DNA of 64,000 nt from Oscillospiraceae bacterium (GCA_009780025.1 WRAV01000001.1:1-64000), one strand, 5' to 3'; numbered from the stretch's first letter, positions 3,387 to 42,949 are shown. Program-made: numbers and translations. Notes: generated by a model not told the origin, from the sequence alone.

Positions 3387-3463
3387 TGGTCGAGGCGACA
3401 GGACTCGAACCTGCGGCATCTTGGTCCCAAACCAAGCACTCTACCAAACTGAGCTACGCCTCG
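3387..3463 (-). tRNA. tRNA-Pro (anticodon TGG)
   Basis: A 77-base cloverleaf is readable on the minus strand. The acceptor stem is CGAGGCG/CGCCTCG with discriminator A and an encoded CCA end. The anticodon stem CTTGG/CCAAG holds the loop TTTGGGA, which gives anticodon TGG. The T-arm contains GGTTCGAATCC. A short open frame on this strand across the region is only a shadow of the tRNA. Confidence 0.95.
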
Positions 3464-9592: not shown

Positions 9593-9666
9593 GCGGGTAT
9601 GGTTTAGTGGCAGAACATCAGCTTCCCAAGCTGAGAGTGTGGGTTCGATTCCCATTACCCGCTCCA
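9593..9666 (+). tRNA. tRNA-Gly (anticodon CCC)
   Basis: A 74-base cloverleaf: acceptor stem GCGGGTA/TACCCGC with discriminator T (as usual for glycine) and an encoded CCA. The anticodon stem TCAGC/GCTGA encloses TTCCCAA, so the anticodon is CCC. The T-loop region reads GGTTCGATTCC. Confidence 0.95.
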
Positions 9667-16284: not shown

Positions 16285-16372
16285 GATAACCGTCTCCTTT
16301 TGTTAGTGTATTATGTCATCCGTATTTACGGTCAACACACGCTATGGAGTTAGGGTATACCTGGAAACATGC

Positions 16373-26078: not shown

Positions 26079-26117
26079 AAGCCGCAGATACTGCACTCCC
26101 AGGGTCTGCGGCTTTCT
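26079..26117 (+). terminator. Terminator of the HAD gene
   Basis: AAGCCGCAGA pairs with TCTGCGGCTT, followed by TCT and a weak T-run. Confidence 0.7.
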
Positions 26118-26139: not shown

Positions 26140-26168
26140 TTGAGTTCGGCACCCAAAGGTGCTATAGT
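26140..26168 (+). promoter_or_regulatory. Promoter of the DUF4132-MoxR-DUF5682-VWA-SWIM operon
   Basis: TTGAGT, 17 bases, TATAGT. The -10 ends 61 bases before the ATG at 26230, which rules out the upstream in-frame TTG at 26140 as a start, because it lies in the -35 box. Confidence 0.6.
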
Positions 26169-26229: not shown

Positions 26230-29200
26230 ATGAACGCGATGATTGATCAACTAATGGAAGTGGCAAACCGGAAGTTTACCGACGAGCAAATTCGGCTGAT
26301 TGGCGGGTATCTGACAGGGCAGGAGAAGTTGGGGAAGGTATCGCCCATATTCAGCGGGGTAAAGCTAAAGTGGTACAGTGTTACACGCGGCTTGCGAGAA
26401 ATTGCACGGGAGTGCGCAAAGGAGCCCAAACTGCTCCCACGTGTCGGGCGGTACCTAGTGCTGATACACGGCATAGATGAGCGACTTTACATCAATGTTA
26501 TAGCCCAGCTACAAAACGCCGGCATGAGCTTTGAGCAGCTCTTTCTCGAAAGCGAGCTGGACGAGAGCTGGCTGCTTGAATATATATTCTGTCTCCGCCA
26601 TATGGTGCTCACGTCGCAGGAAACGCTGAGGTACTTGGAGATTATTGCGGAGCGCAACCCCAGGGCTTTGCGCGAATTTGCGAAGGATAAATCTTCGCCT
26701 GGGCGGTTACCGATACTGGGTTTTCTGGCGGGGCGCAGTGAGCTTCCAAAAGCCGGGCTTTTTGGCGATACGCTAAACAGTTTTACCAAAGAGGTGGTAG
26801 CCGCGGCCACCGCGATGACAAACAGATGGGCGCTTGAGGCCAAGGACGGTCGCAATCGAGGACATGTCAAGGGTGAACTGCACGACTCCGTCGTGTTTGA
26901 TGCGATTTTGCTGGCCGGCTCTAGGGTTCCCGCAGTAAACGCGCTGGCCCGACATATATCCGACGCCCACATGGAAAGGTTCATCTTGCTGCTGTTGACC
27001 ATGATGCACAGAGGTAACGTGGCCACATTGCTTACCAACAGTTTTGCGTATGAGCGCGCAAGCGAGAAGGAAAAGCGAGAATGCGAAGAGTGCTTCGCAC
27101 AGACGGAGGCGGCCTGCCAAAAAATGGGTATAATGCGGGGGCGTATGTGCGCCTATATCGCGAATCAGATGCTGTTTGCCAAAAGGCCTTGGCGAAGTGT
27201 ATGGGAAGCCCGCTACAAGGATACGACCCGCGCGGCCCTTGAGTTTGCCGACCCTGCCACCCAAGTACAGCTGAATATCCTGCTCGAAGAGCTTGGGGAA
27301 CCGATGCCGGCGGAGAAGTGCGAGGAGCTCTGTATGTCGGAGTTGCGGGAGAGGATGAGTATGTACGAGTCAGCTGCGGATGTAGACGCGGTGCTCGAGT
27401 GGTTCATTCATGGTGGCGGCAGGCCAGATGAACTTCCGCGCCTTGAAAAATACCATCAAAATGCATATCGTGGTTATCAAGGCCCGGCCGTGCATTCCGC
27501 CATTCTCAGTCTGCCTGTGTCTTCGGACTTGTGGGTGCGGTACCTGTGGTATATCGCGACGCTAAATTCCGGGTTTGCCAGGGTCACTACAGCGCTGCAG
27601 TATATGGGCGAGATGCGTGGGCAGTACGGTGCTGCGATAGCAGGCAGAGTTGTAGAGCTTGGCGGAGGATATGACATTCTGTGCGGCGCGGCTGAATCCT
27701 ATTTTTACAACGTCTCCGAGCCGCCTGTTATAACCGATTGTTTGCAAACACTCGCATTGCACAATCCCGACTGGGTGGCCCAGGCAGTGGGAGATAAGCA
27801 GCTAAGCATTGAGGTCCGCCTGCGCATTCTCAGCGCTATGTACGATGCCGCGCCTGGCCACGACCCAGCTATCCTGATTGCAGCTCTGGGCGATTCCTCG
27901 AAAAAAATCCGAGAGTGTGCGCTTGATTATCTGCGGCCCCGCAGCGAGCTGATTGACCAGATGCGTCCGCTGACCGAGGCTAAAAAGAAGGGTGTTCGAG
28001 AGGCAGCGGAGCAGCTTATCGTTGCATACGAAGGGGGCGTTGGTTCGGGCGGTACCGACAGTGGCGACGCCAGCAGTAGTGAGATTGCCGCTTACTGCAC
28101 CCGAAACCTCCCCAAGAACGCTGCAAACGCGCTGGTTTGGGCGCTGCCTGGAGGAATACCGACCATTCGCTTGGCGAGCAGCTCAGCTCCCGCGGATGAG
28201 AAAATAATATTGTTCTACTTGCATAGCATCCTTGCGAGCAAGAGTTTTGACCTCCCGCCGAAAATATTAGAGATTCGCGCCGAACTAAACGCGGACGACC
28301 TGAACGCGCTGGCGATTGATATATACGAAGCCTGGCTGGCCGAGGGCGCCCCCGCAAAACAAAAGGCAGCAGTGCTCTTTTACGGTCTCCACGCTCGAGA
28401 TGCCCAGGTCACGACGCTGGTGAAGCAGATTGAAGCCTGGGCAGGTGCCTCTCGTGGGGCGCTTGCCTCCGACGCTGCTCGCGCTCTGGCTCTTGGCGGC
28501 AGCGACCTCGCGCTGATGAGCGTGGACGCTATGGCCCGCAAATTCAAAAACAAAGCGGTGCGCAAGGCTGCGGGAGAGACGTTCGGTGTGGCAGCGGCAG
28601 CTTTAGGCGTTACGCCAGAGGCTCTGGGTGACCGCATAATTCCGACGCTGGGCTTTGACCTGCGCGGCGAGAAGATTATTGACTATGGAACACGACAGTT
28701 CACCGCATTGCTTACCCCCGCGCTGAGTGTCGAACTGCGCGACGCTACGGGCAAGAAAATAGCCTCCCTGCCAAAGCCCGGAGTCAAGGACGACGCTGAG
28801 GTCGCCGAGCGCGCAAAGGCCGAGTTTGTCGCGCTCAAGAAAAGCCTAAAGGCAGTTGTGCAGGCCCAGAGCGCCCGCCTGGAACAGGCGCTGGCTGCTG
28901 GGCGCTACTGGGACGCCACTGCCTGGGAGCAGCTGTTTGTGCGCAACCCGATTATGCACAGCTTTGCCACCGGCCTTGTTTGGGGCGTGTACGAAGGCCA
29001 TGCCCTGCGCGAGACCTTCCGTTACATGGAGGACGGCACGCTCACCACATCCGACGAGTGCGAGTTCTCGTTTGACGAGGTTGACGAGTGCAGGGTCGGC
29101 CTTGTGCACCCGCTTGATATGAACGAAAAATTACTCGCACTCTGGCGACAGCAGTTTGACGACTACGATATAAAGCAGCCACTTGTCCAGCTGGGCCGCC

Positions 29201-29637
29201 CTGTATTTCTGCCTCAGCCCGGCGAAACTCGGGTTATAGAACGATTCGCGGGCAAGCGCTTGCTCGGTGTCACGCTGCTGGGAAAGCTGCAAAAGGCCGA
29301 CTGGTTCAAAGGCAGCGTACAGGACGCTGGCGGCTTCAACACCATGTACCGCGAGATCGGCGAAATTGGCGCGCAGCTGTACTTTACGCACATGTATGTC
29401 TCGCCCATGCCGGATGAAGTTATCACGGTGGGTCAACTCGGATTCTATAAGGCCGGCAGCATCGAGCGCGGCAGCTACGTCTACGATGATGTGAAGGCAG
29501 ATGATTTGTTTGAAATAAGTACACTACCACGCCGCCTCTTCTCGGAGATTATACTCGACCTGACAAACGCGACCGGGAAGTCAACTGAGACAGACGACAA
29601 CTGGCGTAGTGAATGCGAAGGGTGGAAGATTAAATGA
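26230..29637 (+). CDS. DUF4132-domain protein with helical repeats (YehI/MolR-like)
   Basis: Start is the ATG at 26230, nine bases after AAGGTGG. The 1135-residue protein is almost all helical. Residues 1-600 look like HEAT/ARM-type repeats, and residues 560-780 show clearer HEAT-like units such as AALGDSSKKIRECALDYLR. The C-terminal 250 residues contain the DUF4132 pattern WEQLFVRNPIMHSFATGLVW. DUF4132 is named MolR/YehI in E. coli, where it stands with a MoxR ATPase, a VWA protein and a SWIM protein. The present gene heads the same set, and its stop overlaps the ATPase start (ATGA). No enzyme motif is visible; a scaffold or client-recognition role is my inference. Confidence 0.88.
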   Translation: MNAMIDQLMEVANRKFTDEQIRLIGGYLTGQEKLGKVSPIFSGVKLKWYSVTRGLREIARECAKEPKLLPRVGRYLVLIHGIDERLYINVIAQLQNAGMSFEQLFLESELDESWLLEYIFCLRHMVLTSQETLRYLEIIAERNPRALREFAKDKSSPGRLPILGFLAGRSELPKAGLFGDTLNSFTKEVVAAATAMTNRWALEAKDGRNRGHVKGELHDSVVFDAILLAGSRVPAVNALARHISDAHMERFILLLLTMMHRGNVATLLTNSFAYERASEKEKRECEECFAQTEAACQKMGIMRGRMCAYIANQMLFAKRPWRSVWEARYKDTTRAALEFADPATQVQLNILLEELGEPMPAEKCEELCMSELRERMSMYESAADVDAVLEWFIHGGGRPDELPRLEKYHQNAYRGYQGPAVHSAILSLPVSSDLWVRYLWYIATLNSGFARVTTALQYMGEMRGQYGAAIAGRVVELGGGYDILCGAAESYFYNVSEPPVITDCLQTLALHNPDWVAQAVGDKQLSIEVRLRILSAMYDAAPGHDPAILIAALGDSSKKIRECALDYLRPRSELIDQMRPLTEAKKKGVREAAEQLIVAYEGGVGSGGTDSGDASSSEIAAYCTRNLPKNAANALVWALPGGIPTIRLASSSAPADEKIILFYLHSILASKSFDLPPKILEIRAELNADDLNALAIDIYEAWLAEGAPAKQKAAVLFYGLHARDAQVTTLVKQIEAWAGASRGALASDAARALALGGSDLALMSVDAMARKFKNKAVRKAAGETFGVAAAALGVTPEALGDRIIPTLGFDLRGEKIIDYGTRQFTALLTPALSVELRDATGKKIASLPKPGVKDDAEVAERAKAEFVALKKSLKAVVQAQSARLEQALAAGRYWDATAWEQLFVRNPIMHSFATGLVWGVYEGHALRETFRYMEDGTLTTSDECEFSFDEVDECRVGLVHPLDMNEKLLALWRQQFDDYDIKQPLVQLGRPVFLPQPGETRVIERFAGKRLLGVTLLGKLQKADWFKGSVQDAGGFNTMYREIGEIGAQLYFTHMYVSPMPDEVITVGQLGFYKAGSIERGSYVYDDVKADDLFEISTLPRRLFSEIILDLTNATGKSTETDDNWRSECEGWKIK

Positions 29638-30743
29638 CGAGAGACCAGATAAAGCCGCCGGTTGAAGTTTTATATCGGCAGGAGCTCGCGGCACTTGAGA
29701 AGAGTGATGAGGGCAACCCAAAGCCCCAAGGCTGGCGGCTCTCGCCCAAGGCGGTACGCACCTTTATTTTGGGCAGCGCGGGGCCGCTCAAGGTGGACGG
29801 CGAAAAGATTGTGATCGAGAAGAAGTTCTACGGCGACGATACCCTGGTCGAGCGCTGCATTATCACGCTTGCGGGCAGCCGAGGGCTTATGCTTGTAGGC
29901 GAGCCGGGTACCGCCAAGACTATGCTCTCGGAGCTGCTGTCCGTGGCGGTTAGCGGGGTGTCGACCAACACTGTGCAGGGCACAGCCGGTACCACCGACG
30001 ACCTAATTAAATACAGCTGGAACTATGCCTTGCTGCTCGCGCGCGGCCCGGTGCCCGAGGCTCTTGTTCCCGCCCCGCTCTACCACGGGATGAAAAACGG
30101 TATCATCACCCGGTTTGAGGAGATAACCCGCTGCCCAAGTGAGGTGCAGGATACCCTCATCTCGGTGATGAGCGACAAGGTGCTGAACATTCCCGAGTTT
30201 GGCGAGGACGGCGTGCTTTTTGCAAAACCCGGATTTAACATCATCGCGACCGCGAATATACGCGATCGGGGCGTTAACGAGATGTCCTCTGCCCTCAAGC
30301 GGCGGTTTAACTTTGAGACAGTCAACCCAATCTCGTCTGTCCGACTGGAGTGCGAGATCATCGAGCGCCAGTGCCGGATGCTGCTCGACGACACGGCCTT
30401 GGGCATACCAATCGACACCGATGTGGTCGAGCTGCTGGCCACAACCTTCCACGAGCTGCGCGAGGGGCAGACGGCCGAGGGCGTCAAGATCGAATCCCCC
30501 GCGGCCGTTATGAGCACGGCCGAGGCCGTCAGTCTTTACCACCAAACTGCGCTTTCCGCCCACTTTTACGGAGAGCGACTCTCGATGGACACACTCGCTC
30601 AAAACCTGTGCGCGGCTGTCCTAAAGGAGAGCAAGGACGACCTGCCCCGCCTGCGAAGTTACTTCTCCTCAGTAGTCAAGAAGCGCGGGGAAAAAGACCG
30701 CTTGTGGCAGGCGCTTTACGAGGCTCGCAAGTGGATACGTTAG
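29634..30743 (+). CDS. MoxR-type AAA+ ATPase (YehL-like)
   Basis: The 369-residue ATPase has Walker A GEPGTAKT at residues 89-96, sensor 1 IIATANIRDRG with Asn208, and the arginine pair of ALKRRF at 223-224. The Walker B region reads IITRFEEITRCPSEVQ, with Glu-Glu where most AAA+ proteins have Asp-Glu. MoxR ATPases remodel client proteins together with a VWA partner, as in RavA-ViaA, CbbQ-CbbO and NorQ-NorD. The VWA partner is encoded two genes downstream. It overlaps the DUF4132 gene by four bases and the next gene by 13. Confidence 0.93.
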   Translation: MTRDQIKPPVEVLYRQELAALEKSDEGNPKPQGWRLSPKAVRTFILGSAGPLKVDGEKIVIEKKFYGDDTLVERCIITLAGSRGLMLVGEPGTAKTMLSELLSVAVSGVSTNTVQGTAGTTDDLIKYSWNYALLLARGPVPEALVPAPLYHGMKNGIITRFEEITRCPSEVQDTLISVMSDKVLNIPEFGEDGVLFAKPGFNIIATANIRDRGVNEMSSALKRRFNFETVNPISSVRLECEIIERQCRMLLDDTALGIPIDTDVVELLATTFHELREGQTAEGVKIESPAAVMSTAEAVSLYHQTALSAHFYGERLSMDTLAQNLCAAVLKESKDDLPRLRSYFSSVVKKRGEKDRLWQALYEARKWIR

Positions 30744-33076
30744 CGGGAAGTGGCTACGACCTCACTGCTCCCGTGCTGTTTTTCCCGGTGCGCCACCACA
30801 GCCCGGCCTGCGCCTGGCATCTCGAGCGGACACTGCGAGACTACCAGCCGGACGCGATTCTGGTGGAAGGACCGTGCGATTCAGACCATCTTATCGCGCA
30901 TATAAGCGCTCCCGATAGCCTTGCCCCACTCAGCATATACTACCAGTGTACCAGCGAAAACGAGGACGGTGCCACCCGCCGCCATGCCTGCTACTTCCCG
31001 CTGATGGACTACTCGCCCGAGCTTGTGGCAATCCGCTATGGTGCGGCGAACAGTATATCCACAAGTTTCATAGACTTGCCATATGGCGAGCTTGCTCGGA
31101 TTGACGCGCGTGCAGTCGGCGAAGAGGGCAAGGAGTCCTACTTCGACGACTATTACATCTCGCGCAGTCGCTATATCGAACGCCTGTGCGAGAAGCAGAA
31201 CTGCCGCCACTACAGCGAACTCTGGGAGAAGCTCTTTGAGATTGGCGGGCTGAGCCTGGACACATCGGCTTTTGTAGCCAATATGCGAGCCTTCTGCCAT
31301 TTCTCGCGGGTGGAGTATCCGGACGAGCTTTTGCAGAAGGATGGCTGTGCCGCACGCGAGGACTTTATGGCGGAGAAAATCCGCGAGGCGATGAAGGTGC
31401 ACTGCAAGGTGCTGGTAGTCACCGGCGGGTTTCACACCGAGGTGCTTGAGAGGCTAATAGCACAGCCAAGTTCTCCTGCAAGGGGAAAGCGGAGCCTTGC
31501 AACCTCCGACAGTTACTTGATTGCCTACTCAATGGCCGAGTGCGACCAACTTATGGGCTACTCTTCCGGAATGCCGTACCCTGCGTATTACCAAGCGGTG
31601 TACGAGAACTTGGATGAGCCCGAGACCGCGTCCCAGCACGCCATAACGCAGTACCTAGCCAAGATTGGCGGCGCACTCCGCAGACGAGGTCAGCCGGTCT
31701 CAATCGCAGATGAGGTGGCCTCGGTTATACAGGCGCGGGGGCTGGCCGGGCTGCGCGACAAGGCCCAACCCGGAGTGTACGAGCTGTTGGATGGCGTTCT
31801 CAGCGCGTATATGAAAGGCGAAGCAAACGCTGCCTCATCCACGATTTTTGCGGTTACGACCGAAATACTGCGCGGCGACAAGATGGGCAAGGTCTCGGCA
31901 GGTGTGGAGAAAATTCCGCTGCTGCTTGACTTTGAAAAGCAGCTCAGCAACTTTAAGTTAAAGCAGTCAACTACCCGCCGCGAGGTGACGCTTGAGATTC
32001 TAAACAGGCAGAGGCACCGAGAGATGTCGGCGTTTTTCTACTGCCTTGCGTTTTTGGACGTGGGCTTTGCCGAGCGCTGCTACGGGCCGGACTACTCCTC
32101 CCTCGATACCTCGCGGGTGCGCGAGAAGTGGAGTTACGCAGGAAGTGCTCGGGTGATCGGCGCACTTGTCGACGTCTCGCACCTGGGCGGTACCATCCGC
32201 GAGGCGGCGCTGACAAAACTGCTTGGGCAGCGCGCGGGGCAAACCTCATCTGGGGCGGCAACACGCCTGCTGATTGATGCCGTAGTCATGGGGCTGACCG
32301 AGCAACTTGTGCCGATGGCAGCCGGACTCGGCGAGGTCATCGCGCTAGATAGCTCGTTTTTTTCTCTGACCGGGGCGGGCGCGCACCTCTGTTTCCTTGA
32401 GAACGCATGCACTCTGCTAGAGCTGCCGGCAATCCCGCAGGCGGAGGAGCTGCTGTTACAGGTGTACGAGAAATCCTGCGCCGAGCTCTGTTCGCTCAGC
32501 ACTGCCAACCCGGATGAAGACGCGGAGTTTGCGCGGGCGCTCAAATCGCTCTACCAGATCTCGCGCCGGTCCGGCATGGATACAGGTCTCTTTACCGACG
32601 CCTTACTCCAGCTTGTCTCGCAGGATGAGCCGCCCGTTATTTTGCATGGGGCAGCGGTAGGCTTTTTGTACAGCGCTGGGATTTTAGACGCCGAACAGGC
32701 CATCGGCTACGCAAAGGCATACCTATTCGGGTCAGGTGAGATTGTGCGTAAGGCGGGCATGTTCTTCACAGGTCTGCTGATGAGCGCGTGGGATTTGCTG
32801 TTCTCGCACAGCGGCTTTGTTGAGGGCCTTTCGGATATGCTCTCTCGCCTTTCCCATGAAGACTTTTTGGTTGCGCTGCCTGATTTGCGGTTGGCGTTCT
32901 CGGTCCTTTCTCCCTCGCAGACCGACAGGCTGGCCCGGGTGGTGGCGGAGTTGCTGGGCGTCACTACCCGCGAGCTCCAAAAGAAGGCCGTACCCGAAGA
33001 GCTTTTGCTGCTCGGGCGCGAGCTCAACGCATACGCCGAGGGGAGGAGGAGCGCATGGATAAAGAGCAACAGCTAG
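30731..33076 (+). CDS. DUF5682 protein (YehM-like), possible EreA/TraB-superfamily domain
   Basis: The long open frame begins inside the ATPase gene, but the only sensible start is the GTG at 30731, which gives MDTLAGSGYDLTAPVLFFPV. The 781-residue protein has an N-terminal domain with VRHHSPACAWHL (Arg21, His22, His23, Ser24), DAILVEGPCDSD (Glu46) and a later VVTGGFHTEV (His235). Paired His, a Glu-Gly after a strand and a GGxH motif recall the erythromycin-esterase/TraB/TIKI hydrolase superfamily; that link is inference. The second half is helical. It overlaps the VWA gene by 22 bases, so all components are made together. Confidence 0.8.
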   Translation: MDTLAGSGYDLTAPVLFFPVRHHSPACAWHLERTLRDYQPDAILVEGPCDSDHLIAHISAPDSLAPLSIYYQCTSENEDGATRRHACYFPLMDYSPELVAIRYGAANSISTSFIDLPYGELARIDARAVGEEGKESYFDDYYISRSRYIERLCEKQNCRHYSELWEKLFEIGGLSLDTSAFVANMRAFCHFSRVEYPDELLQKDGCAAREDFMAEKIREAMKVHCKVLVVTGGFHTEVLERLIAQPSSPARGKRSLATSDSYLIAYSMAECDQLMGYSSGMPYPAYYQAVYENLDEPETASQHAITQYLAKIGGALRRRGQPVSIADEVASVIQARGLAGLRDKAQPGVYELLDGVLSAYMKGEANAASSTIFAVTTEILRGDKMGKVSAGVEKIPLLLDFEKQLSNFKLKQSTTRREVTLEILNRQRHREMSAFFYCLAFLDVGFAERCYGPDYSSLDTSRVREKWSYAGSARVIGALVDVSHLGGTIREAALTKLLGQRAGQTSSGAATRLLIDAVVMGLTEQLVPMAAGLGEVIALDSSFFSLTGAGAHLCFLENACTLLELPAIPQAEELLLQVYEKSCAELCSLSTANPDEDAEFARALKSLYQISRRSGMDTGLFTDALLQLVSQDEPPVILHGAAVGFLYSAGILDAEQAIGYAKAYLFGSGEIVRKAGMFFTGLLMSAWDLLFSHSGFVEGLSDMLSRLSHEDFLVALPDLRLAFSVLSPSQTDRLARVVAELLGVTTRELQKKAVPEELLLLGRELNAYAEGRRSAWIKSNS

Positions 33077-34200
33077 GCCGCTGGCGGCTGGTTCTGGGCA
33101 AGTACGCCGAGCAGGGACTTGGCGGCGGGCTGTCCGCCCGGTTTGCCGAAATTGACGAGCTGATGGACTTCCTGTACGGACGCGAATACGGCGAAGGCCG
33201 CGGTATCCGTGGGGAGGAGCAAGACGGCGAGGCGGAAAGCAGGGAAGGCGGCAAAGGCCCTTCGCAGCTCACCGTGCCGTCGTGGATAAACAAGATTCAA
33301 GAGCTGTTCCCCAAGGAAACAGTCGAGCGGTTGGAACGCCACGCCCTCGAAAAATACGATCTCACCGAGCTGCTGACAGATGCCCGTGTGCTCGAAAAGC
33401 TCGAGCCGAATATGGCGCTGCTAAAGCAGATATTGTCGTTCAAGGGGATGATGAGCCCTGAGGTTCTGGCGACCGCCCGCGGCATCGTCGCGAAGGTTGT
33501 TGACGAGCTCACCCGCAAGCTCGAAAACCAAGTGCGCAACGCAGTCATGGGCAGGAGAAACCGCAACACATCCACAACAATGGGGAGTTCGCGCGACCTC
33601 GATTTCAAGCGCACTATCCGCAAAAACCTGAGGCACTACGACCCGGAGACACACACCCTCGTGCTCGAGCGAGTCTACTTTTTCCGGAACCTGCAGCGCT
33701 ACAACCCGTGGAATGTAATCCTCTGTGTGGACGAGAGCGGCAGTATGCTCGAAAACGTGGTACACGCCGCCGTAATGGCCGGAATATTCGCAAAGCTGCC
33801 AGCCATTACGACCAAGCTTGTGATATTCGACACCGAGGTGGTTGACCTCAGCGGGCACGCGAGCGACCCAGTGGAAGCGCTTATGAGCGTTCAGTTGGGT
33901 GGCGGCACCGATATAGGTAAAGCCCTTGCTTACTGCGAGAGCTTGGTAGTCACGCCGGCCCGAACAATACTGGTGCTGATTTCGGATTTGTTTGATGGCG
34001 GCGGTTACCAGCCGATGTACGCGCACATAGCCTCTATGATTGAAGCCGGCGTTAAGATAATCTGCCTGACTGCCCTAGACCGAGATTGTGTCGGCAGTTA
34101 CGACAAAACCGCCGCTAAACGCCTCACCGCTATGGGTGCCTCGGTGGCGTCACTCACACCGGGCGAGCTGGCAAACTGGATTGGCGAGGTGATCAAATAA
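33055..34200 (+). CDS. VWA-domain protein, CoxE/YehP-like partner of the MoxR ATPase
   Basis: A 381-residue protein with a charged helical N-terminal half (residues 1-215) and a C-terminal von Willebrand A domain. The metal-ion site is complete: DESGS at 226-230, the Thr of GGGTDIG, and Asp in ISDLFDGG. The start ATG follows GGAGGAGG and lies inside the DUF5682 gene. VWA proteins of this type dock the client and the MoxR hexamer through the metal site. It ends in a one-base stop/start overlap with the SWIM gene. Confidence 0.92.
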   Translation: MDKEQQLGRWRLVLGKYAEQGLGGGLSARFAEIDELMDFLYGREYGEGRGIRGEEQDGEAESREGGKGPSQLTVPSWINKIQELFPKETVERLERHALEKYDLTELLTDARVLEKLEPNMALLKQILSFKGMMSPEVLATARGIVAKVVDELTRKLENQVRNAVMGRRNRNTSTTMGSSRDLDFKRTIRKNLRHYDPETHTLVLERVYFFRNLQRYNPWNVILCVDESGSMLENVVHAAVMAGIFAKLPAITTKLVIFDTEVVDLSGHASDPVEALMSVQLGGGTDIGKALAYCESLVVTPARTILVLISDLFDGGGYQPMYAHIASMIEAGVKIICLTALDRDCVGSYDKTAAKRLTAMGASVASLTPGELANWIGEVIK

Positions 34201-35870
34201 TGTCGCTAAATGCGGCCATTCAACACGCGGATGAAAACTTCCTCATTGCCCTCAGCAATAAGGGCTTGCTGGCCCGCGCCCTGCGTGAGCTGCCCAGTGC
34301 CGGTGTCAGCGTTTCTTGGGAGGGGGATCGCCTGATCGTCGCCTTTGCGGACGAGACCTCGCTTACAATTGAAGGCACGGTTCAGAATTACAGCTGTAGC
34401 TGCCCCTCGCGCGCTGTGTGCAAGCACCTGCTTATGGCTGTGCTCACCGCCCAGAATGAGCCGCCGGGCGAAAGCGAGCCCGAAGCCGCCCCACCGCCCG
34501 ACTTCTCGTATATAGCGGCGACCAGTGCAGACGCCCTCGAAAAGCTGGCTGGCAAGCGGGTCTTTACCGCCGCGGTAATAGCTGTAGGGTGTGGGCAAGA
34601 ATCCGAGGTCGAAGAGGGCAGCACCCTGACCGTGCGGCTTCGCGATACTGGCCATGTTGTACGCTTTCTCCCATCCGACGGCCTTGAGGGGGCGGGATGC
34701 AGCTGCAAGTCGTCGGATTTTTGTATCCATAGGACGCAGGCTGTGCTGCATGTTATGCTGCGGGACGGCGGCTCGCTCGATCCATCATTTGCTTTGGATA
34801 CGGCGGAAGCTGAGCCTGTTTTCAGCGACGCGCCCGCACCTTTAGTGCGCGACTTTGTCTGCCAGACGCTGGAGATTGGCCTTGCCCGCCTGCCTGATGA
34901 CATGCCCGGCCGATTTTTGCAGCTCGCCACCATCTGCCACGGTGCGCGCCTGCCACGACTTGAGCGGCTTTGCAACCGCGTAGCGGGCCAGCTCGGGCTG
35001 CTTTCCGCGAAGAATGCGGCCTTTGAGCGGGAGGCCACGCTTGGCGACCTTTCGGATATTTACTCGCTCTGTCTGGCAATAGAGGCGGGCGCCCGCGACA
35101 AAGAGACGCTAGGCGTCTTCCGAGAGAAATATCAGCGCCAGGCCAGCCTGACACTGCATGGTCTCGGTGCGTATCAGTGGCACTCTACGGGCGGGTATAC
35201 CGGCGTCACGCTGTTTTTCTACGAGCCACAGGGGGCGCAGACGCTGCGCTACACGCTGGCACTGCCCGACAGCGCGAACCCAGCACCCGAGCGAATGTTA
35301 GATTCAAGCGCGCCGTGGGGGATTCCCGGTAACCTGCGGGCTATCTGCCACGTGTCTCTGGCCCTTACCAGTGGCAAGCTGAACGGTTATGGACAGCTAT
35401 CATCGTCTGACGAGGGCCGCGCCCGCGTTCTAGGGAGCGTGGACTACACTAGCCTGGAGTTTGCACCCATCCTTTTCCAAAAATTCGCGGGCCTTGCGTC
35501 CGCACTCTGGGACGCCAGGGAGCGCGGCCAGCAGGAAATGGTAGCTATTTTGCACCCAAGCACTTGGTCGCAGAGCCGGTTTGATCAGATAGATCAGATT
35601 TGGAGTTGTATCATCTACGACCAGGACGGCTGCCCGCTGACGCTACAAGTGCGCTACGAACCCAGCACAAAAAAGCTCATTGAGAACCTTGCGAAGTATC
35701 TGCCAAAAGAGCGTGAAAACGGCGTGGGCCTGCTTGCGCGCATATGGATGGACAAAGGCCGGCTTGTGGCATTTCCTGTCACACTTTACGCGGAGAGCAT
35801 TATAGAGCTCGGCTTTGAACGGGAGAGGGCAAAGCGCGGCAAAAAAGATTACTACGACTGGAGCGTCTAG
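34200..35870 (+). CDS. SWIM zinc-finger protein (YehQ-like) with two CxCxnCxH clusters
   Basis: The 556-residue protein contains a canonical SWIM motif (Cys66, Cys68, Cys74, His76; CSCPSRAVCKH) and a second cluster of the same spacing at Cys167, Cys169, Cys175, His177 (CSCKSSDFCIH). SWIM fingers bind DNA or protein. The remaining 370 residues form an alpha/beta region with no family I recognise. It is encoded directly after the VWA gene (TAATG). Two SWIM-like clusters 100 residues apart suggest a duplicated binding unit. Confidence 0.88.
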   Translation: MSLNAAIQHADENFLIALSNKGLLARALRELPSAGVSVSWEGDRLIVAFADETSLTIEGTVQNYSCSCPSRAVCKHLLMAVLTAQNEPPGESEPEAAPPPDFSYIAATSADALEKLAGKRVFTAAVIAVGCGQESEVEEGSTLTVRLRDTGHVVRFLPSDGLEGAGCSCKSSDFCIHRTQAVLHVMLRDGGSLDPSFALDTAEAEPVFSDAPAPLVRDFVCQTLEIGLARLPDDMPGRFLQLATICHGARLPRLERLCNRVAGQLGLLSAKNAAFEREATLGDLSDIYSLCLAIEAGARDKETLGVFREKYQRQASLTLHGLGAYQWHSTGGYTGVTLFFYEPQGAQTLRYTLALPDSANPAPERMLDSSAPWGIPGNLRAICHVSLALTSGKLNGYGQLSSSDEGRARVLGSVDYTSLEFAPILFQKFAGLASALWDARERGQQEMVAILHPSTWSQSRFDQIDQIWSCIIYDQDGCPLTLQVRYEPSTKKLIENLAKYLPKERENGVGLLARIWMDKGRLVAFPVTLYAESIIELGFERERAKRGKKDYYDWSV

Positions 35871-35872
35871 CC

Positions 35873-36205
35873 ATGCCTTACGAAAGCATGCTCGAGATTT
35901 TAGAAGAAGCGCGAGACCTGCTGGGCGTTTTGTTCGAACACGGCCTGGCAAGCACCGGCCCCATAAGCAAAGAACTCGAAGAGCAAAGCCGTACCTTCGC
36001 TTTGGCCGGACTTGAACACGGCGGCAAACTGCTCGCGGACTTGGCCGGCGAGCTCACTGCTACTCGCTTAAACTCCGCCGGAGACTACGAGCGCGCGGTC
36101 GCATTGCTAACCGAGCTTTGGCGGTACATTGCCGCCTGCCTGTACAGGCTTGACTTTGTATGGGCGCAAAGCGATTGCAATACACCCTCGGCTCCCACCG
36201 AATAA
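35873..36205 (+). CDS. Small helical protein of unknown function, 110 aa
   Basis: The gene starts three bases after the SWIM stop and clearly belongs to the operon. The protein is acidic and wholly helical by composition, with regular Leu/Ala spacing (LEILEEARDLLGVLFEHGLA). It has no signal sequence and no cysteine or histidine cluster; its only cysteines are scattered. I do not recognise the family. Given its place it may be a small accessory subunit of the ATPase-VWA system. Confidence 0.65.
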   Translation: MPYESMLEILEEARDLLGVLFEHGLASTGPISKELEEQSRTFALAGLEHGGKLLADLAGELTATRLNSAGDYERAVALLTELWRYIAACLYRLDFVWAQSDCNTPSAPTE

Positions 36206-36271: not shown

Positions 36272-37711
36272 ATGCCGACAGAGGGCTGGAACTTCGAGCA
36301 CACTTACGCGGAGCTTCCGCAGATGTTTTACTGCAACCAAAGGCCGGCGGCCCCACGTGCTCCCCAAATGGTCGTTTTCAACCACACTCTCGCGGGGTCT
36401 CTGGGCCTGAATCCAGGCGCGCTGGAAGATTCCCCAGAAGTGTTTGCGGGCAGTGTTTTGCCCCAGGGTGCGAGCCCCATATCCCAAGCTTATGCAGGGT
36501 ATCAATTCGGCCACTTTGCCATGCTGGGGGATGGCCGGGCGGTTCTGTTGGGAGAGCACTCTGCCCCGGATAGCCGCAAGTTTGACATACAGCTCAAAGG
36601 CTCGGGGCGCACGCCATATTCACGCGGCGGCGACGGCCTTGCAGCCCTCTCGCCCATGCTGAGGGAATACATCATCAGCGAGGCGATGTTTGCTTTGGGT
36701 ATCCCGACAACCCGCTCTTTGGCGGTGGTGCTTACCGGCAGCAACGTCAATCGGGGAGAAGCCTTGCAAGGTGCCATTTTGACACGTGTTGCCTCAAGCC
36801 ATATAAGGGTGGGAACCTTCGATTATGCCTCCGCATACGGCTCGAAAGAAGATTTGCAGGCACTTGCCGACTACAGCATCCTCCGCCACTTCCCGCGACT
36901 TGCAGGAGAGAAGAGCAAATACCTTTTGCTCTTGCGGGAGGTTTGCCGACGTCAAGCATCTCTGATAGCCAAGTGGCAGCTAGTTGGCTTTATACATGGA
37001 GTAATGAATACGGATAATATGACAATTTCGGGCGAGACAATAGATTATGGCCCCTGCGCTTTCATGGACACTTACAGCCCGGACACCGTTTTTAGCTCTA
37101 TTGACACCTATGGGCGCTACGCTTACAAAAACCAGCCGGCTATCGGCGCTTGGAATTTATCCAGGTTTGCCCAGTCGCTGTTGCCGTTAATAGATGAAAA
37201 TCAAGACAGGGCTATAGAACTTGCAGAAGCCGAAATTTCAGGTTACCTGGAGCTCTATGATGAATTTTGGCTTGCCGGTATGCGCGCTAAGCTAGGGCTT
37301 GTCAGCGAGAGTGGGGAAGACCTTCAACTCGTCACGGAGTTATTGGGGTTGATGGAGATGCATAAGCTGGATTATACAAACACCTTCCGCTGGCTGGCGC
37401 TTGCAGGTCGTGAAGCCAAAGCACCGCTTGAAGTAGCCGAATTTGCCCCCTGGCTGGAAAAGTGGCGCAGCAGGCTGAGCCGAGAGTATCGAAACCTAGA
37501 GCACGCGGTGGAGCTGATGAAAAAGCACAACCCGGCTGTTATTCCGAGAAACCACAGGGTCGAAGAAGCTTTGGCTGCAGCCGAGCACGATGACTTGACC
37601 GTTATGCAAAGTCTGCTCAGCGCCCTAATCAAGCCATATGAAGATTCAGAGGCGTATTCTTCGCCCCCCGAGGACACCTTGCGGGAATACAAGACATTTT
37701 GCGGAACCTAA
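36272..37711 (+). CDS. selO: Protein adenylyltransferase SelO (YdiU family)
   Basis: SelO is a pseudokinase-fold enzyme that transfers AMP from ATP to Ser, Thr or Tyr of target proteins. The 479-residue protein has the family residues: Lys in QLKGSGRTPYSRGGDG, Glu in REYIISEAM, Arg in TRVASSHIRVGTF, HGVMNTDNM and the metal-binding Asp in DYGPCAFMD. It ends in TFCGT, and the Cys is at the position of selenocysteine in animal SelO. It follows the small helical gene by 66 bases on the same strand with its own GGAGGG site, so it may be part of the same operon. Confidence 0.95.
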   Translation: MPTEGWNFEHTYAELPQMFYCNQRPAAPRAPQMVVFNHTLAGSLGLNPGALEDSPEVFAGSVLPQGASPISQAYAGYQFGHFAMLGDGRAVLLGEHSAPDSRKFDIQLKGSGRTPYSRGGDGLAALSPMLREYIISEAMFALGIPTTRSLAVVLTGSNVNRGEALQGAILTRVASSHIRVGTFDYASAYGSKEDLQALADYSILRHFPRLAGEKSKYLLLLREVCRRQASLIAKWQLVGFIHGVMNTDNMTISGETIDYGPCAFMDTYSPDTVFSSIDTYGRYAYKNQPAIGAWNLSRFAQSLLPLIDENQDRAIELAEAEISGYLELYDEFWLAGMRAKLGLVSESGEDLQLVTELLGLMEMHKLDYTNTFRWLALAGREAKAPLEVAEFAPWLEKWRSRLSREYRNLEHAVELMKKHNPAVIPRNHRVEEALAAAEHDDLTVMQSLLSALIKPYEDSEAYSSPPEDTLREYKTFCGT

Positions 37712-38105: not shown

Positions 38106-39461
38106 ATGGCAAGTTTGTTCAACGTTCTCAAAGCAGAAGGGCTCACAACTCTGAGGATTCGTTATGATTTTCGCACGGACGTATTCCGCTTTGTGGCAGC
38201 AAAGGAGTGGGAGCCCAGCACTGATTTTTCCAAGTATAACAAGACGTTCAATGTGAGGAGCTACTTGACTGATGACGCAGTCTACCTGAACACCGCAGCA
38301 GTTATTGCAATGGTTGAGAAGCATGGGCAAACAGAGCACCTAAATAGGGTTCAAGATCTTGTTCGCCAAGGCAAGCATTTTGGCATCGACATGTTTTACA
38401 ACGACAAGTTTAACATCCGGTTTATCTGCGGTATCCACAGCCCCAAGCGCGGTGTTAACAACAAGAGCCACGCCACAATGGCCGGCGCTACCCGCCGCAA
38501 AGACCTCTCGCTTCCCGAGATCGACGCCATCATTGACGCACTGAACCTTTCCCGCTCGATGGCCTTCAAAAATATTGCCGCCGACATTCCCTTCGGCGGC
38601 TGCAAAACCACTATACAAATGGACACTCCCGACATCAACAACATGGAAGTCATGGGTTTTATGGCGTATGCCTGCGACACCACACGCTGCCTGACCGGCC
38701 CGGACATGGCTTTCCCTAAAGAGATGGTCACAGTCATGAATAAGAACTTCACCATGCAGTATGTCGGTGGCCCCGGTTCCGCTTTGGGCGACACAGCTAT
38801 CCCGACCGCGCTGGGCGCATACCTTGCCCTCAAACAAGCGGTTAAGTTCAAGACAGGCTCCGAGAGCTTGGACGGCATGTCGGTAGCGATTCAGGGACTT
38901 GGCGCCGTTGGTTACGCGATGGCCGAGTGCGTCCTGCAAGAGAAGACAAAGCTGTTCGTGGCCGACATCAACGAGGCGACTCTTGACAAGCTCGTGAAGG
39001 CATACCCTGGCCGCGACATCACAGTTGTGCCCACCGGCGAGATTATCAACGTAGACGCCGATATATTCAGCCCTAGCGCCATGGGCGGTATCCTAGGCGA
39101 AGAAGAGATTAAGGCCGTCAAATTCAAGTACATAATCGGAGCGGCAAACAACCAGCTGCGCGCCACCAACCAAGAAGAAGAACTTAGGCTTGCAAAGCTC
39201 CTGGCAGACCGCGGCATTCTCTTCCAAGTAGACTGGTGGCACAACTGTGCCGGCGTTCTTGCAGCCGCCATGGAGTACGTCCACGGGTTTGATAAGAACA
39301 ACGATGACCTTGTCAAAGCTGTTCGCGAAGTGTTGCCCACCCAAACCTGGAAGAACCTTAACCGCGCTAAGGAGCAGGGCATTACGCCGACAGAGAGTGC
39401 ATACAGAAGCTGCAATGAACTCATTTACGGCGATGTGGCAGACGCATATTGGAAAATATAA
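38106..39461 (+). CDS. Glu/Leu/Phe/Val-type amino-acid dehydrogenase
   Basis: The 451-residue protein has the two-domain layout of this family. The catalytic segment is AFKNIAADIPFGGCKTTI, which holds both active-site lysines, and the NAD-binding loop is IQGLGAVGYAMAE near residue 260. Leucine dehydrogenases usually read GGGK where this has GGCK, and the N-terminus is about 80 residues longer than leucine dehydrogenase. It is therefore a divergent member and may favour aromatic or branched amino acids. It would supply the 2-oxo acid to IorAB, encoded three genes on. GGAGG precedes the ATG. Confidence 0.9.
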   Translation: MASLFNVLKAEGLTTLRIRYDFRTDVFRFVAAKEWEPSTDFSKYNKTFNVRSYLTDDAVYLNTAAVIAMVEKHGQTEHLNRVQDLVRQGKHFGIDMFYNDKFNIRFICGIHSPKRGVNNKSHATMAGATRRKDLSLPEIDAIIDALNLSRSMAFKNIAADIPFGGCKTTIQMDTPDINNMEVMGFMAYACDTTRCLTGPDMAFPKEMVTVMNKNFTMQYVGGPGSALGDTAIPTALGAYLALKQAVKFKTGSESLDGMSVAIQGLGAVGYAMAECVLQEKTKLFVADINEATLDKLVKAYPGRDITVVPTGEIINVDADIFSPSAMGGILGEEEIKAVKFKYIIGAANNQLRATNQEEELRLAKLLADRGILFQVDWWHNCAGVLAAAMEYVHGFDKNNDDLVKAVREVLPTQTWKNLNRAKEQGITPTESAYRSCNELIYGDVADAYWKI

Positions 39462-39476
39462 GGGGGGGGAAAACGC

Positions 39477-40373
39477 ATGTTTGCTAACTTTACAGAGTTA
39501 AAAGACAGCCTTTCGGCCAGTGCAGCTAAGACCCTTGTTGTGGCATCCGCCCACGACAAACATACGTTGGAGGCGGTATACGAAGCCGTGCAGTCGCTGC
39601 CTATGAAGTACATCCTGGTCGGCGACAAGGCGAAGATTCTGGAGATATCCCGCGAGCTTGGCGTGACACCGGCTGAAGGCGATATTGTGGACGCTGCTGA
39701 CGATGCGGCCTGTGCTTGCAAAGCGATTGACCTTATCCGCGAGGGCCGCGGCAATGTACTGATGAAGGGCTTAATCGAAACCGGCACTCTGCTAAAAGCG
39801 GCGCTGGACAAAGAGAACGGCATTCGGGGAACCGGAACAATGTCACACTTGGCTGTGCTTGAAGTTCCCGGTTACCACAAGCTGGTTGCCGTCACCGACG
39901 GTGGGATGATTCCTCACCCCACCTTGGAGCAAAAAGCCGACATCGCCCGGAACGCTATTGGTTTCTTCCAAAAGCTGGGCGTACAAAAGCCACAAGTCGC
40001 GGCGCTTGCCGCCGCCGAGGCCGTAAGCGAAAAAATGCCGGAAACACAGGCTGCTGCTGAGCTGCAAGCCATGTGCGGGCGCGGCGAGCTGGGCGAGTGT
40101 GTCGTAGAGGGTCCGCTGTCTTTCGACATCTCGGTCAGCAAGGAGTCCGCAGCTATCAAGAAACACCCCAGCAAAATCACAGGCGAAGTGGACATTCTGC
40201 TGGTGCCCGGGGTTGCGACAGGCAATATCCTTTGCAAGGGGCTGCTTTACTGGGGTGGCGCCAAAATGGCCGGCTGTGTTCTGGGAGCAAAAGTACCGAT
40301 CGTGCTGGTATCGCGCGGTGCTACCGCAGAGGAAAAGCTGCTCTCCATCACGCTCTGCCTTAAAGCGGGTTAG
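39477..40373 (+). CDS. ptb: Phosphate acyltransferase, phosphate butyryltransferase type (Ptb)
   Basis: The 298-residue protein matches phosphotransbutyrylase: NVLMKGLIETGTLLKAALDK and GTMSHLAVLEVPGYHKL in the first half and DILLVPGVATGNILCKGLLY in the second. It exchanges the CoA of an acyl-CoA for phosphate. With Buk it conserves the thioester energy as ATP. It lies 15 bases after the dehydrogenase with a GGGGGG-rich ribosome site. Its TAG stop is formed at the left border of a repeat element. Confidence 0.95.
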   Translation: MFANFTELKDSLSASAAKTLVVASAHDKHTLEAVYEAVQSLPMKYILVGDKAKILEISRELGVTPAEGDIVDAADDAACACKAIDLIREGRGNVLMKGLIETGTLLKAALDKENGIRGTGTMSHLAVLEVPGYHKLVAVTDGGMIPHPTLEQKADIARNAIGFFQKLGVQKPQVAALAAAEAVSEKMPETQAAAELQAMCGRGELGECVVEGPLSFDISVSKESAAIKKHPSKITGEVDILLVPGVATGNILCKGLLYWGGAKMAGCVLGAKVPIVLVSRGATAEEKLLSITLCLKAG

Positions 40374-40532
40374 AACCTATATTCATAACTCAGCGCACCG
40401 CTACGGCAACGAGTTTTCCGTCGTGCTGCGTCAGTTTCCCTTGGAATACATACAGTATTCCCGCAGAAAATTCCTTGCCCAGCGAAAAACTCGCTGCCGC
40501 ACCGGCACACTTCGTTTATGAATACAGGTTCT
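40372..40532. mobile_element. 161-base palindromic MITE-like element within the ptb-iorA gap
   Basis: The ends are inverted copies, AGAACCTATATTCATAA and TTATGAATACAGGTTCT (16 of 17 pair), and the two arms remain complementary inward (CGGCAACGAGTTTTCCG against CGAAAAACTCGCTGCCG). The whole element can fold on itself around GGAATACATACAGTATTCC. TTA occurs on both sides of GAACC...GGTTC, which could be a target duplication. It has no coding capacity. It sits between two genes that should be cotranscribed, so it will be present in the mRNA as a large hairpin. Confidence 0.7.
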
Positions 40533-40587
40533 TAAGAATACAATTTTAAGATATATTCAAAAACTAAGCGAAAGAGAGGAAAGTCTT

Positions 40588-42363
40588 ATGAAACGATTGT
40601 TGACAGGCAACGAGGCCATAGCCCACGGCGCGTGGGAGGCGGGCGTTGCGTTTGCTTCAGCCTATCCGGGTACGCCCAGCTCTGAAATACTAGCGAATGT
40701 TGCAAGGTACAAAGAAATCAAGTCCGAGTGGGCTCCCAACGAAAAGGTAGCCCTGGAAGCCGCTATAGGTGCTTCGCTCGGTGGCGTGCGCAGCATTGCC
40801 GCTATGAAGCACGTCGGCGTTAACGTGGCTGCGGACCCCTTGTTTACCTACGCGTACATGGGTGTAAGCGGTGGCATGGTGCTTATCTCCGCCGACGAGC
40901 CTGGCCAGCACTCCAGCCAGAATGAGCAGGACAACCGCTGGTACGCGGTATCTGCCAAGCTGCCAATGTTTGAGCCCTCCAATAGCCAAGAGTGCAGAGA
41001 TATGCTTGCCGAGGCTTACGACATCAGCGAGAAGTACGACGCGCCTGTGCTGATGCGTGTTACTACCCGCATCTGCCACTCTAAGAGCATTGTCGACACC
41101 AGCGACAGGAAAGAAGTTGCTGCAAAGCCGTACAAAAAGCAGCCCGAGAAGAATCTGATGGTTCCGCACTACGCGAGAATGCGCCGCGCCGTGGTCGAAC
41201 AGCGGATGAACGACCTTGCCGAGTACACAGAGGTAAGCCCGTTTAACTACATAGAAAAAGGCGGAAAAATTGGCGTAATCGCTTCCGGTATGTGCTACCA
41301 CTTTGCACGGGAAGTATTCGGCGATGACGTAACATACCTAAAACTGGGCTTCACAAACCCGCTGCCGTCAGGCCTTCTGGCAAAGTTTTACGATATGGTT
41401 GACGAAGTCTACATTATCGAAGAGAACGACCCCTACATCGAAAACTGGGTCAAAGCTCAAGGTTACAGCTGCAAGGGCAAAGACACACTGCCGCCGTTTG
41501 GCGAGATGACACCGGATGTTATCCGCAAAGCTGTACGTGGCGAAGAGCTCCCGGTTATCGATTACGACAGGGGCCTTGTCGTGCCAAGACCGCCAACACT
41601 CTGCGCAGGCTGCCCACACCGCGGATTCTTCTACGAGCTGAGCAAGCTTAAGAATGTAGCGATTTCCGGTGATATCGGCTGCTACACCCTTGGCTTTGCA
41701 CCACCGTACAACGCTATGGACACCTGCCTGTGCATGGGCGGAGCCTTCAGTGTGGCCCACGGCATGCAGGAAGCGTTCGACCACAGCGGCCAAAACGTCC
41801 GAGCAATAGGCGTTCTTGGTGACAGCACATTCTTCCACACCGGCATAAACTCCCTCATGGAGATTGCCTACAACGGCAGCAAGGCTATCAGCGTTATTCT
41901 GGACAACCGCATAACCGGCATGACCGGCCACCAGGAAAACCCGGGCTCCGGTCGTCTTCTGGGCGGCGATCCCGCGCCTGTCATGAAGATCATGGATATT
42001 GTTAAGGCGCTTGGCTTCAAGCACGTATTCGAAGTCAACCCCAACGATATTAAGGCTATGAAGAAGACATTTGCCGATGCGTTGGCACTGGATGAAGCCT
42101 CCGTTATCGTCACTGTTTGGCCCTGCCCGCTCAAGAGAATGGACGAAGAAGAGCGCGGACTTTTCGGTAACCCGTTTACAACACGGTGCGTAGTAGATCA
42201 AGACAAGTGCATCGGCTGTAAGCTCTGCATCAAGTGCGGTTGCCCGGCGCTGTCTATGAACAGAGCAATCAAGAAAGCAGAGATAGACGCACCTCAATGC
42301 GTGGGCTGCGACGTATGCGTTCAGATTTGCCCGAAACAAGCAATCGCAAAGGAGGTCAAGTAA
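40588..42363 (+). CDS. iorA: Indolepyruvate ferredoxin oxidoreductase, alpha subunit (IorA)
   Basis: The 591-residue protein has the N-terminal pyruvate-ferredoxin oxidoreductase domain (GNEAIAHGAWEAGVAFASAY), the thiamine-diphosphate domain (GDIGCYTLGFAPPYNAMDTC) and, after residue 525, two 4Fe-4S clusters (CIGCKLCIKCGCP, CVGCDVCVQICPK). It oxidises aryl-pyruvates to aryl-acetyl-CoA and reduces ferredoxin. The stop lies one base before the iorB start. Related enzymes also accept branched 2-oxo acids. Confidence 0.95.
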   Translation: MKRLLTGNEAIAHGAWEAGVAFASAYPGTPSSEILANVARYKEIKSEWAPNEKVALEAAIGASLGGVRSIAAMKHVGVNVAADPLFTYAYMGVSGGMVLISADEPGQHSSQNEQDNRWYAVSAKLPMFEPSNSQECRDMLAEAYDISEKYDAPVLMRVTTRICHSKSIVDTSDRKEVAAKPYKKQPEKNLMVPHYARMRRAVVEQRMNDLAEYTEVSPFNYIEKGGKIGVIASGMCYHFAREVFGDDVTYLKLGFTNPLPSGLLAKFYDMVDEVYIIEENDPYIENWVKAQGYSCKGKDTLPPFGEMTPDVIRKAVRGEELPVIDYDRGLVVPRPPTLCAGCPHRGFFYELSKLKNVAISGDIGCYTLGFAPPYNAMDTCLCMGGAFSVAHGMQEAFDHSGQNVRAIGVLGDSTFFHTGINSLMEIAYNGSKAISVILDNRITGMTGHQENPGSGRLLGGDPAPVMKIMDIVKALGFKHVFEVNPNDIKAMKKTFADALALDEASVIVTVWPCPLKRMDEEERGLFGNPFTTRCVVDQDKCIGCKLCIKCGCPALSMNRAIKKAEIDAPQCVGCDVCVQICPKQAIAKEVK

Positions 42364-42364
42364 A

Positions 42365-42937
42365 ATGACAAAGAGCATTTTGTTGGTAGGCGTAGGCGGC
42401 CAAGGTACCATTTTGGCCAGTAAGCTGCTTACAATCGGCCTTATGCAATCGGGCTACGATGTAAAGATGAGTGAGATTCACGGCATGAGTCAGCGCGGCG
42501 GTTCGGTTTCCAGCCAGGTGCGCTACGGCAAAAGGGTAGAGTCCCCGGTTATCGAACTTGGTGGCGCCGATATTCTGATCTCGTTTGAAAAGATGGAAGC
42601 TTTGCGGTGGCTGGAATATCTGCGCAAAGACGGCAAAGCTGTCGTCAACGATTACCAGATCAACCCAATGCCGGTCGTCTCCGGTGTAGCTGACTACTCA
42701 GATAAGATTGGCGATGAGCTGGCAGCCAAAGTAGCCGACATCACATTTGTTAAGGCATTCGATGAAGCTATGGCTCTTGGTAATCCCAAGGTGCTCAACA
42801 TTGTTCTGCTGGGTACAATCGTGAAGATGATGAACCTTACTGACATTGACTGGAACGCCATTATCGCGGCCGAAGTTAAAAAGAACTTTATAGAGCTCAA
42901 CCAAAAGGCCCTTGCTCGCGGCCTCGAGCTAGTATAG
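42365..42937 (+). CDS. iorB: Indolepyruvate ferredoxin oxidoreductase, beta subunit (IorB)
   Basis: A 190-residue gamma-domain type subunit with the glycine-rich start LLVGVGGQGTILASKLLTIG and the conserved MSEIHGMSQRGGSVSSQVRYG. It forms the complex with IorA, and the genes are separated by one base. Confidence 0.94.
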   Translation: MTKSILLVGVGGQGTILASKLLTIGLMQSGYDVKMSEIHGMSQRGGSVSSQVRYGKRVESPVIELGGADILISFEKMEALRWLEYLRKDGKAVVNDYQINPMPVVSGVADYSDKIGDELAAKVADITFVKAFDEAMALGNPKVLNIVLLGTIVKMMNLTDIDWNAIIAAEVKKNFIELNQKALARGLELV

Positions 42938-42949
42938 CGGGAGGGGAAG

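Follow-up and report, generated by a model that had tools for sequence, protein, structure and literature searches.

A stretch of 64,000 nucleotides from an Oscillospiraceae bacterium (GCA_009780025.1, WRAV01000001.1:1-64000; hereafter the window) carries at 26230-36205 a cassette of six genes, which encode a DUF4132 protein, a MoxR-type AAA+ ATPase, a DUF5682 protein, a VWA protein, a SWIM zinc-finger protein and a small sixth component that we call SIX. The cassette is a coherent, self-contained and horizontally moving unit. Profile and motif comparison assigns the N-terminal domain of the DUF5682 protein to the TIKI/TraB/ChaN superfamily. We tentatively favour the idea, at somewhat less than an even chance, that the products form one cytosolic machine in which a MoxR/VWA motor is coupled to a TIKI-type hydrolase, with a solenoid and a SWIM-SIX pair choosing the client.

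Open reading frame (ORF) calling and translation place the six genes on the + strand in the same direction. An earlier sequence-only reading of this DNA had described five large genes running stop-to-start with a small sixth gene behind them. This observation is confirmed: the five span 26230-35870, neighbouring genes overlap by 4, 13, 22 and 1 nt in order, and a gap of 2 nt separates the SWIM stop from the sixth gene. The families named in that reading stand, while its count of five parts becomes six with SIX included. Its interpretation as a whole is partly supported, the chaperone and sensing roles being ones that we infer. All five large proteins score above their Pfam family cut-offs, SIX has no Pfam family and none of the six has an NCBIfam match above the curated cut-off. 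The genes are as follows.

26230-29637, + strand: DUF4132 protein (YehI-like), 1135 aa; Pfam PF13569, 1.5e-42
29634-30743, + strand: MoxR-type AAA+ ATPase (YehL-like), 369 aa; Pfam AAA_5, 1.2e-31
30731-33076, + strand: DUF5682 protein (YehM-like), 781 aa; Pfam, 9e-94; GTG start inferred
33055-34200, + strand: VWA_CoxE protein (YehP-like), 381 aa; Pfam, 3.6e-47
34200-35870, + strand: SWIM zinc-finger protein (YehQ-like), 556 aa; Pfam SWIM, 2.1e-5, above the cut-off
35873-36205, + strand: SIX, sixth component, 110 aa; longer SWIM proteins have a homologous C-terminal domain

Linkage and distribution of the cassette

The named genomes were scanned with an alignment of ten AAA sequences, which gave at least 566 relatives; the best 80 were retained with flanks of up to 10 kb. 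The same scan with a single AAA protein as the query returned no matches. These 80 loci are the AAA matches nearest to the window copy and the co-occurrence counts hold for this branch. The AAA gene has 9.5 kb or more of sequence on either side in 50 of these loci. All 50 carry DUF5682, 49 VWA, 48 SWIM and 45 DUF4132, and 46 carry SIX, either free or inside the SWIM protein. Co-occurrence of the families exceeds chance, and the linkage that the sequence-only reading had proposed holds, each partner accompanying the ATPase in 45-50 of the 50 loci rather than rarely. Viewed from the DUF5682 side, the AAA gene lies beside DUF5682 in eight of nine unbiased genomes with enough sequence. DUF5682 is absent from four of nine genomes that bear DUF4132. 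The order AAA-DUF5682-VWA-SWIM is nearly constant across loci, and the place of DUF4132 varies by lineage: it precedes AAA or follows either VWA or SWIM.

The proteins also vary together. All five proteins are encoded at 51 loci, and across these their pairwise distances are correlated with r of 0.88-0.96 (Mantel p 0.001). Compared with the copy in a genome of the same genus, all six genes show ratios of nonsynonymous to synonymous substitution (dN/dS) of 0.05-0.18, indicating purifying selection. The genes that flank the cassette hardly recur between loci, and the same-genus copy sits at another site, with the SelO gene of that genome on a different contig. In a tree of AAA proteins the window copy groups with one from a Gracilibacteraceae metagenome-assembled genome (MAG), supported at 98% by the Shimodaira-Hasegawa-like approximate likelihood ratio test, and next (91%) with proteins from Spirochaetes and Tannerella MAGs, not with those of other Oscillospiraceae. 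This grouping points to transfer across phyla. Going by their isolate names, we take these MAGs to be termite-gut bins. The E. coli branch of the tree is implausibly long and its position was not used.

DUF5682 scores above the cut-off in five of 61 genomes (the bacterium's own and its relatives) and in eight of 398 genomes of the phylum, and copies of the cassette lie on replicons that their records class as plasmids in Agrobacterium, Rhizobium, Streptomyces, Hymenobacter and Iodobacter. Such patchiness in the Bacillota, the cross-phylum relatives of the window copy and the plasmid copies would suit an anti-phage or conflict system akin to the MoxR-vWA ternary systems, whose MoxR-vWA core the cassette shares (Kaur et al., 2020; PMC7159879); here the solenoid and the SWIM protein would sense invasion and a toxic hydrolase would be freed. 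We consider this quite improbable. The yehK-yehQ stretch of E. coli is matched in 5341 of 5426 genomes (about 98%), in 5162 of them over at least 80% of its length, and the matches are chromosomal at all but two places. None of the six proteins matched a PADLOC 2023 model at E values up to 0.1, defence models are not enriched among flanking genes relative to random genes (a rough control, as the random set came from other genomes), and the neighbours in the window are metabolic. A role in phage defence is not supported. A YehL-like ATPase (45.9% identity) occurs in only one record of the phage collection, our locus L132 (MT835988), a 14 kb entry filed as an unverified 'Bacteriophage sp.'; this unannotated faecal scaffold may not be phage.

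Conserved domains and protein partners

The DUF5682 protein consists of a TIKI/TraB-type domain (residues ~1-250) followed by a helical C-terminal region. Its AlphaFold2 model, built like the others from alignments of rows other than E. coli, has a mean predicted local distance difference test (pLDDT) of 88.8 and a predicted template-modelling score (pTM) of 0.81. VIA-align matched residues 1-248 to a subunit of Tetrahymena complex IV with Z 11.3 and to ChaN with Z 9.2 (root-mean-square deviation 5.5, 174 residues), and the helical matches of the C-terminal half ranked lower than both. Alignment by hhalign with TraB (PF01963) covers residues ~12-246 with probabilities of 86.7-89.6 and E values of 2e-6 to 4e-6; the controls reached at most 1.1 for 60 column shuffles, 0.3 for the reversed profile and at most 6.6 for 30 unrelated proteins, and half-size DUF5682 subsets scored 66-87% against TraB. 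His22, Glu46, Arg209 and His235 align with the conserved TraB His, Glu, Arg and His (GX2H-type His residues) and are invariant in 69 of 69 DUF5682 sequences, E. coli included. At the level of motifs, the suggestion made from the sequence that DUF5682 may be a hydrolase is upheld. Active enzymes of the TIKI superfamily cut peptide or ester bonds by means of His and Glu residues (PMC6254334). Profile searches of the PDB sequences with the DUF5682, VWA and SWIM proteins gave no clear relative.

A single polypeptide combines DUF5682 and VWA in L027, a Clostridia relative, where it has 993 aa, and in the cassette of a Streptomyces plasmid, where it has 1257 aa. The fusions probably arose separately, since they are in two phyla. 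As far as our literature search shows, both the TIKI assignment of DUF5682 and these fusions are undescribed.

The motor components appear intact. In the ATPase, Walker A (residues 89-96, at 29898-29921), the Glu-Glu of Walker B, the sensor residue Asn208 and Arg223/Arg224 are invariant in ten of ten sequences. The VWA protein has a full metal-ion-dependent adhesion site (MIDAS; D226xS228xS230, Thr285, Asp311), invariant in 23 of 23, and its best VWA model in Pfam is VWA_CoxE. This last match, the precedent of the NorQD mechanism and the naming of ChaN by structure as the superfamily match all favour the main alternative to a hydrolase machine, a cofactor- or metal-insertion chaperone of NorQD/CoxDE type in which MoxR/VWA would open an apo-enzyme and DUF5682 would bind the cofactor, in the manner of ChaN, or trim the client. 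A molybdoenzyme client would fit: molR has been described as a gene for molybdenum utilization that maps to this position in E. coli, and DUF4132/WGR proteins have been linked to MolR. However, no recurring oxidoreductase or other client gene lies beside the cassette among the loci compared, whereas known insertion pairs adjoin their client and have no DUF5682, SWIM or DUF4132 partners. We judge this explanation rather unlikely.

SIX is free-standing in 30 loci and forms part of the SWIM protein in 28; no locus has both arrangements. A profile of free-standing SIX alone matches the C-terminus of SWIM proteins, the lowest independent E value (i-Evalue) being 2e-23, and it gives a weaker match to a copy inside SWIM; an internal copy is found in 17 loci at an i-Evalue below 1e-3. 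SIX is very probably a physical partner of the SWIM protein, because its gene either adjoins the SWIM gene or is part of it. That it is an unrelated neighbour gene was rejected, since it is fused to SWIM in other loci; its apparent absence from the same-genus copy was rejected as an ORF-calling artefact, the gene being present at 16216-16512 of locus L037. The small gene that had been noticed after SWIM is accordingly a real one, with a dN/dS of 0.18 against this same-genus copy. It was undetectable in the E. coli yeh region, and as far as our literature search shows SIX is an undescribed component. The SWIM protein has a first CxCx5CxH motif at residues 66-76 (34395-34427), invariant in 34 of 34 sequences, and a second at residues 167-177 (34698-34730), such a second motif being present in most SWIM sequences.

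The repeats seen in the DUF4132 sequence are borne out by its predicted structure, a HEAT-like solenoid (residues ~1-800) with a conserved alpha/beta C-terminal part (AlphaFold2 mean pLDDT 84.7, pTM 0.59; HEAT-type matches). DUF4132 is the least fixed part of the cassette and is also found outside it. DUF5691 takes its place in the Rhizobium and Hymenobacter cassettes. In three Bacillota loci (L019, L021 and L022) one or two helical proteins of ~608-643 aa with no confident family replace it, in the architecture SWIM, helical protein(s), AAA, DUF5682, VWA, which resembles the DUF5691 version.

Several observations on DUF4132 would suit a DNA-damage or nucleic acid stress machine, in which DUF4132 (often with WGR) and SWIM would detect damage to DNA or RNA, leaving the motor to remodel the bound complex. 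WGR is fused to DUF4132 in the Agrobacterium cassette, and the WGR gene yehF lies near yehI. The Deinococcus DUF4132 gene DRA0166 is upregulated on depletion of DdrO (PMC8533742), and the solenoid resembles several DNA- and ribonucleoprotein-associated HEAT proteins. In addition, a gene for a UvrD-type helicase of more than 1100 aa lies between AAA and DUF5682 in two Lachnospiraceae MAGs (L053, 11196-14762, and L056). Nevertheless, Pfam detects no WGR domain in the window DUF4132 protein, DRA0166 may lie outside any cassette, the HEAT matches are unspecific and the helicase insert is rare. We assign this explanation a low probability.

Putative transcription signals and neighbouring genes

Two features precede the operon.

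26081-26117, + strand: hairpin and T-run, GCCGCAGA / TCTGCGGC then TTTCT, read directly from the sequence
26140-26168, + strand: putative sigma-70 promoter with extended -10 (TTGAGT-17-TATAGT, with TG), a consensus match only

The hairpin is a probable terminator of the HAD gene upstream and would set the operon apart. Its loop exceeds the loop limit of our hairpin scan and it is not in the output of that scan. An alternative upstream start of the DUF4132 ORF, TTG 26140, lies on the promoter-like site, and the start was therefore taken as ATG 26230. G+C is 0.58-0.59 at 28001-36000 of the window and ~0.52-0.54 on either side; this rise over the cassette is mildly consistent with its acquisition.

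A gene for SelO, a protein adenylyltransferase, lies 66 nt downstream of the cassette (36272-37711). SelO is found in only three of 41 related genomes and adjoins the cassette in this window only, so that it is probably a chance neighbour. SelO and HAD were both rejected as parts of the cassette, each being matched in this window only among the loci compared. Further downstream (38106-44011) are fermentation genes: Glu/Leu dehydrogenase-like, phosphate acetyl/butyryl transferase, 2-oxoacid oxidoreductase and acetate/butyrate kinase-like. The only RNA families detected in the window are tRNA-Pro(tgg) at 3387-3463 (- strand) and tRNA-Gly(ccc) at 9593-9666 (+ strand).

Proposed mechanism and comparison with known systems

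The proposed hydrolase machine builds on the observed gene set and order, the co-evolution of the proteins, the ATPase, MIDAS, zinc and TIKI motifs and the DUF5682-VWA and SWIM-SIX fusions, together with the predicted solenoid fold. The ring of the MoxR-type AAA+ protein (YehL) would act through its VWA partner (YehP) on DUF5682 (YehM), all in a single complex, with VWA docking in the ring as in NorQD. The DUF4132 solenoid and SWIM-SIX would serve as receptor or adaptor and recruit a specific client. ATP hydrolysis would then move the VWA protein, and the client would be remodelled and handed to the hydrolase, which might cut a peptide or ester bond of the client or might itself become switched on. 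A TIKI-type domain tied to a VWA protein makes ATP-driven presentation to, or activation of, a hydrolase the simplest reading. In support of such a scheme, we note that MoxR/VWA pairs remodel clients, as in NorQD (PMC9976466, PMC13036017), and that in jumbo phages MoxR is described next to a VWA protein to which a metallopeptidase domain is fused (PMC7824862).

Several points weigh against this scheme. Foldseek alone gave no strong PDB match for DUF5682 (E values above 0.02), and TraB subsets aligned alone score weakly, only the pooled alignment being clear. The conserved residues of DUF5682 are not proof of hydrolysis, because ChaN, which belongs to the superfamily, binds haem according to its PDB title. 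The cassettes that lack DUF4132 may indicate that this protein is inessential to the mechanism, and the interface, the activity and the client are ones that we infer.

A broader claim is possible, if on balance unlikely: that the cassette represents a new class of AAA+-controlled hydrolase, in which a TIKI-type peptidase or esterase of the cytosol is gated by a six-part MoxR/VWA motor. Clients would be chosen by solenoid receptors that can replace one another (DUF4132 or DUF5691) and by a SWIM-SIX adaptor, and the core parts would be common to E. coli and four or more further phyla.

Among known systems, the MoxR-vWA ternary conflict systems (PMC7159879) likewise combine a MoxR-vWA core with further proteins in one operon. 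The bpMoxR model, however, gives 19.6 bits here, below its cut-off of 27, and Pfam finds no VMAP, inactive STAND, FtsH or beta-propeller third component among the six proteins; the text of that paper names neither YehL nor DUF4132. NorQ-NorD and CoxD-CoxE resemble the cassette in pairing a MoxR AAA+ protein with a MIDAS-bearing VWA partner, and Walker A/B, sensor 1, the arginines and the MIDAS are intact here. The cassette differs in adding four proteins, including one with a TIKI-type domain, and no client enzyme gene travels along. With the TIKI/TraB/ChaN/erythromycin-esterase superfamily, DUF5682 shares the profile match and the H-E-R-H positions, and the structural match to ChaN suggests that it may share the fold as well; unlike the superfamily, it has a long helical-repeat region and a gene beside or fused to a MoxR/VWA system.

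The open-access papers searched do not name DUF5682 and few of them name DUF4132, most subscription papers lying outside the search. Those naming at least two yeh genes are, by title and abstract, not on the function of the operon, and the open-access literature searched holds no dedicated study of, or experiment on, the cassette. The operon is nevertheless present in about 98% of complete genomes of E. coli, the best-studied bacterium. For a machine of mostly DUF labels, the TIKI/TraB motif, the VWA-DUF5682 fusions and the SWIM-SIX pairing offer testable residues and protein pairs.

The closest likeness is to yehI-(yehK)-yehL-yehM-yehP-yehQ of E. coli. As the sequence-only reading had recognized, E. 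coli K-12 has the same five families in the same order; in the window they are adjacent and co-directional. YehL is one of the seven named MoxR subfamilies (PMC3893208), and the yeh region is dispensable in the genome-reduced strain DGF-298 (PMC10652928). Identities to the E. coli proteins are 49% for AAA (over the full length), 42% for VWA, 26% for DUF5682 and 20% each for SWIM and DUF4132. E. coli differs in the undetectable SIX, in yehK between yehI and yehL and in its neighbours yehF and yehH. The window cassette is a variant of this known, uncharacterized YehL-type cassette.

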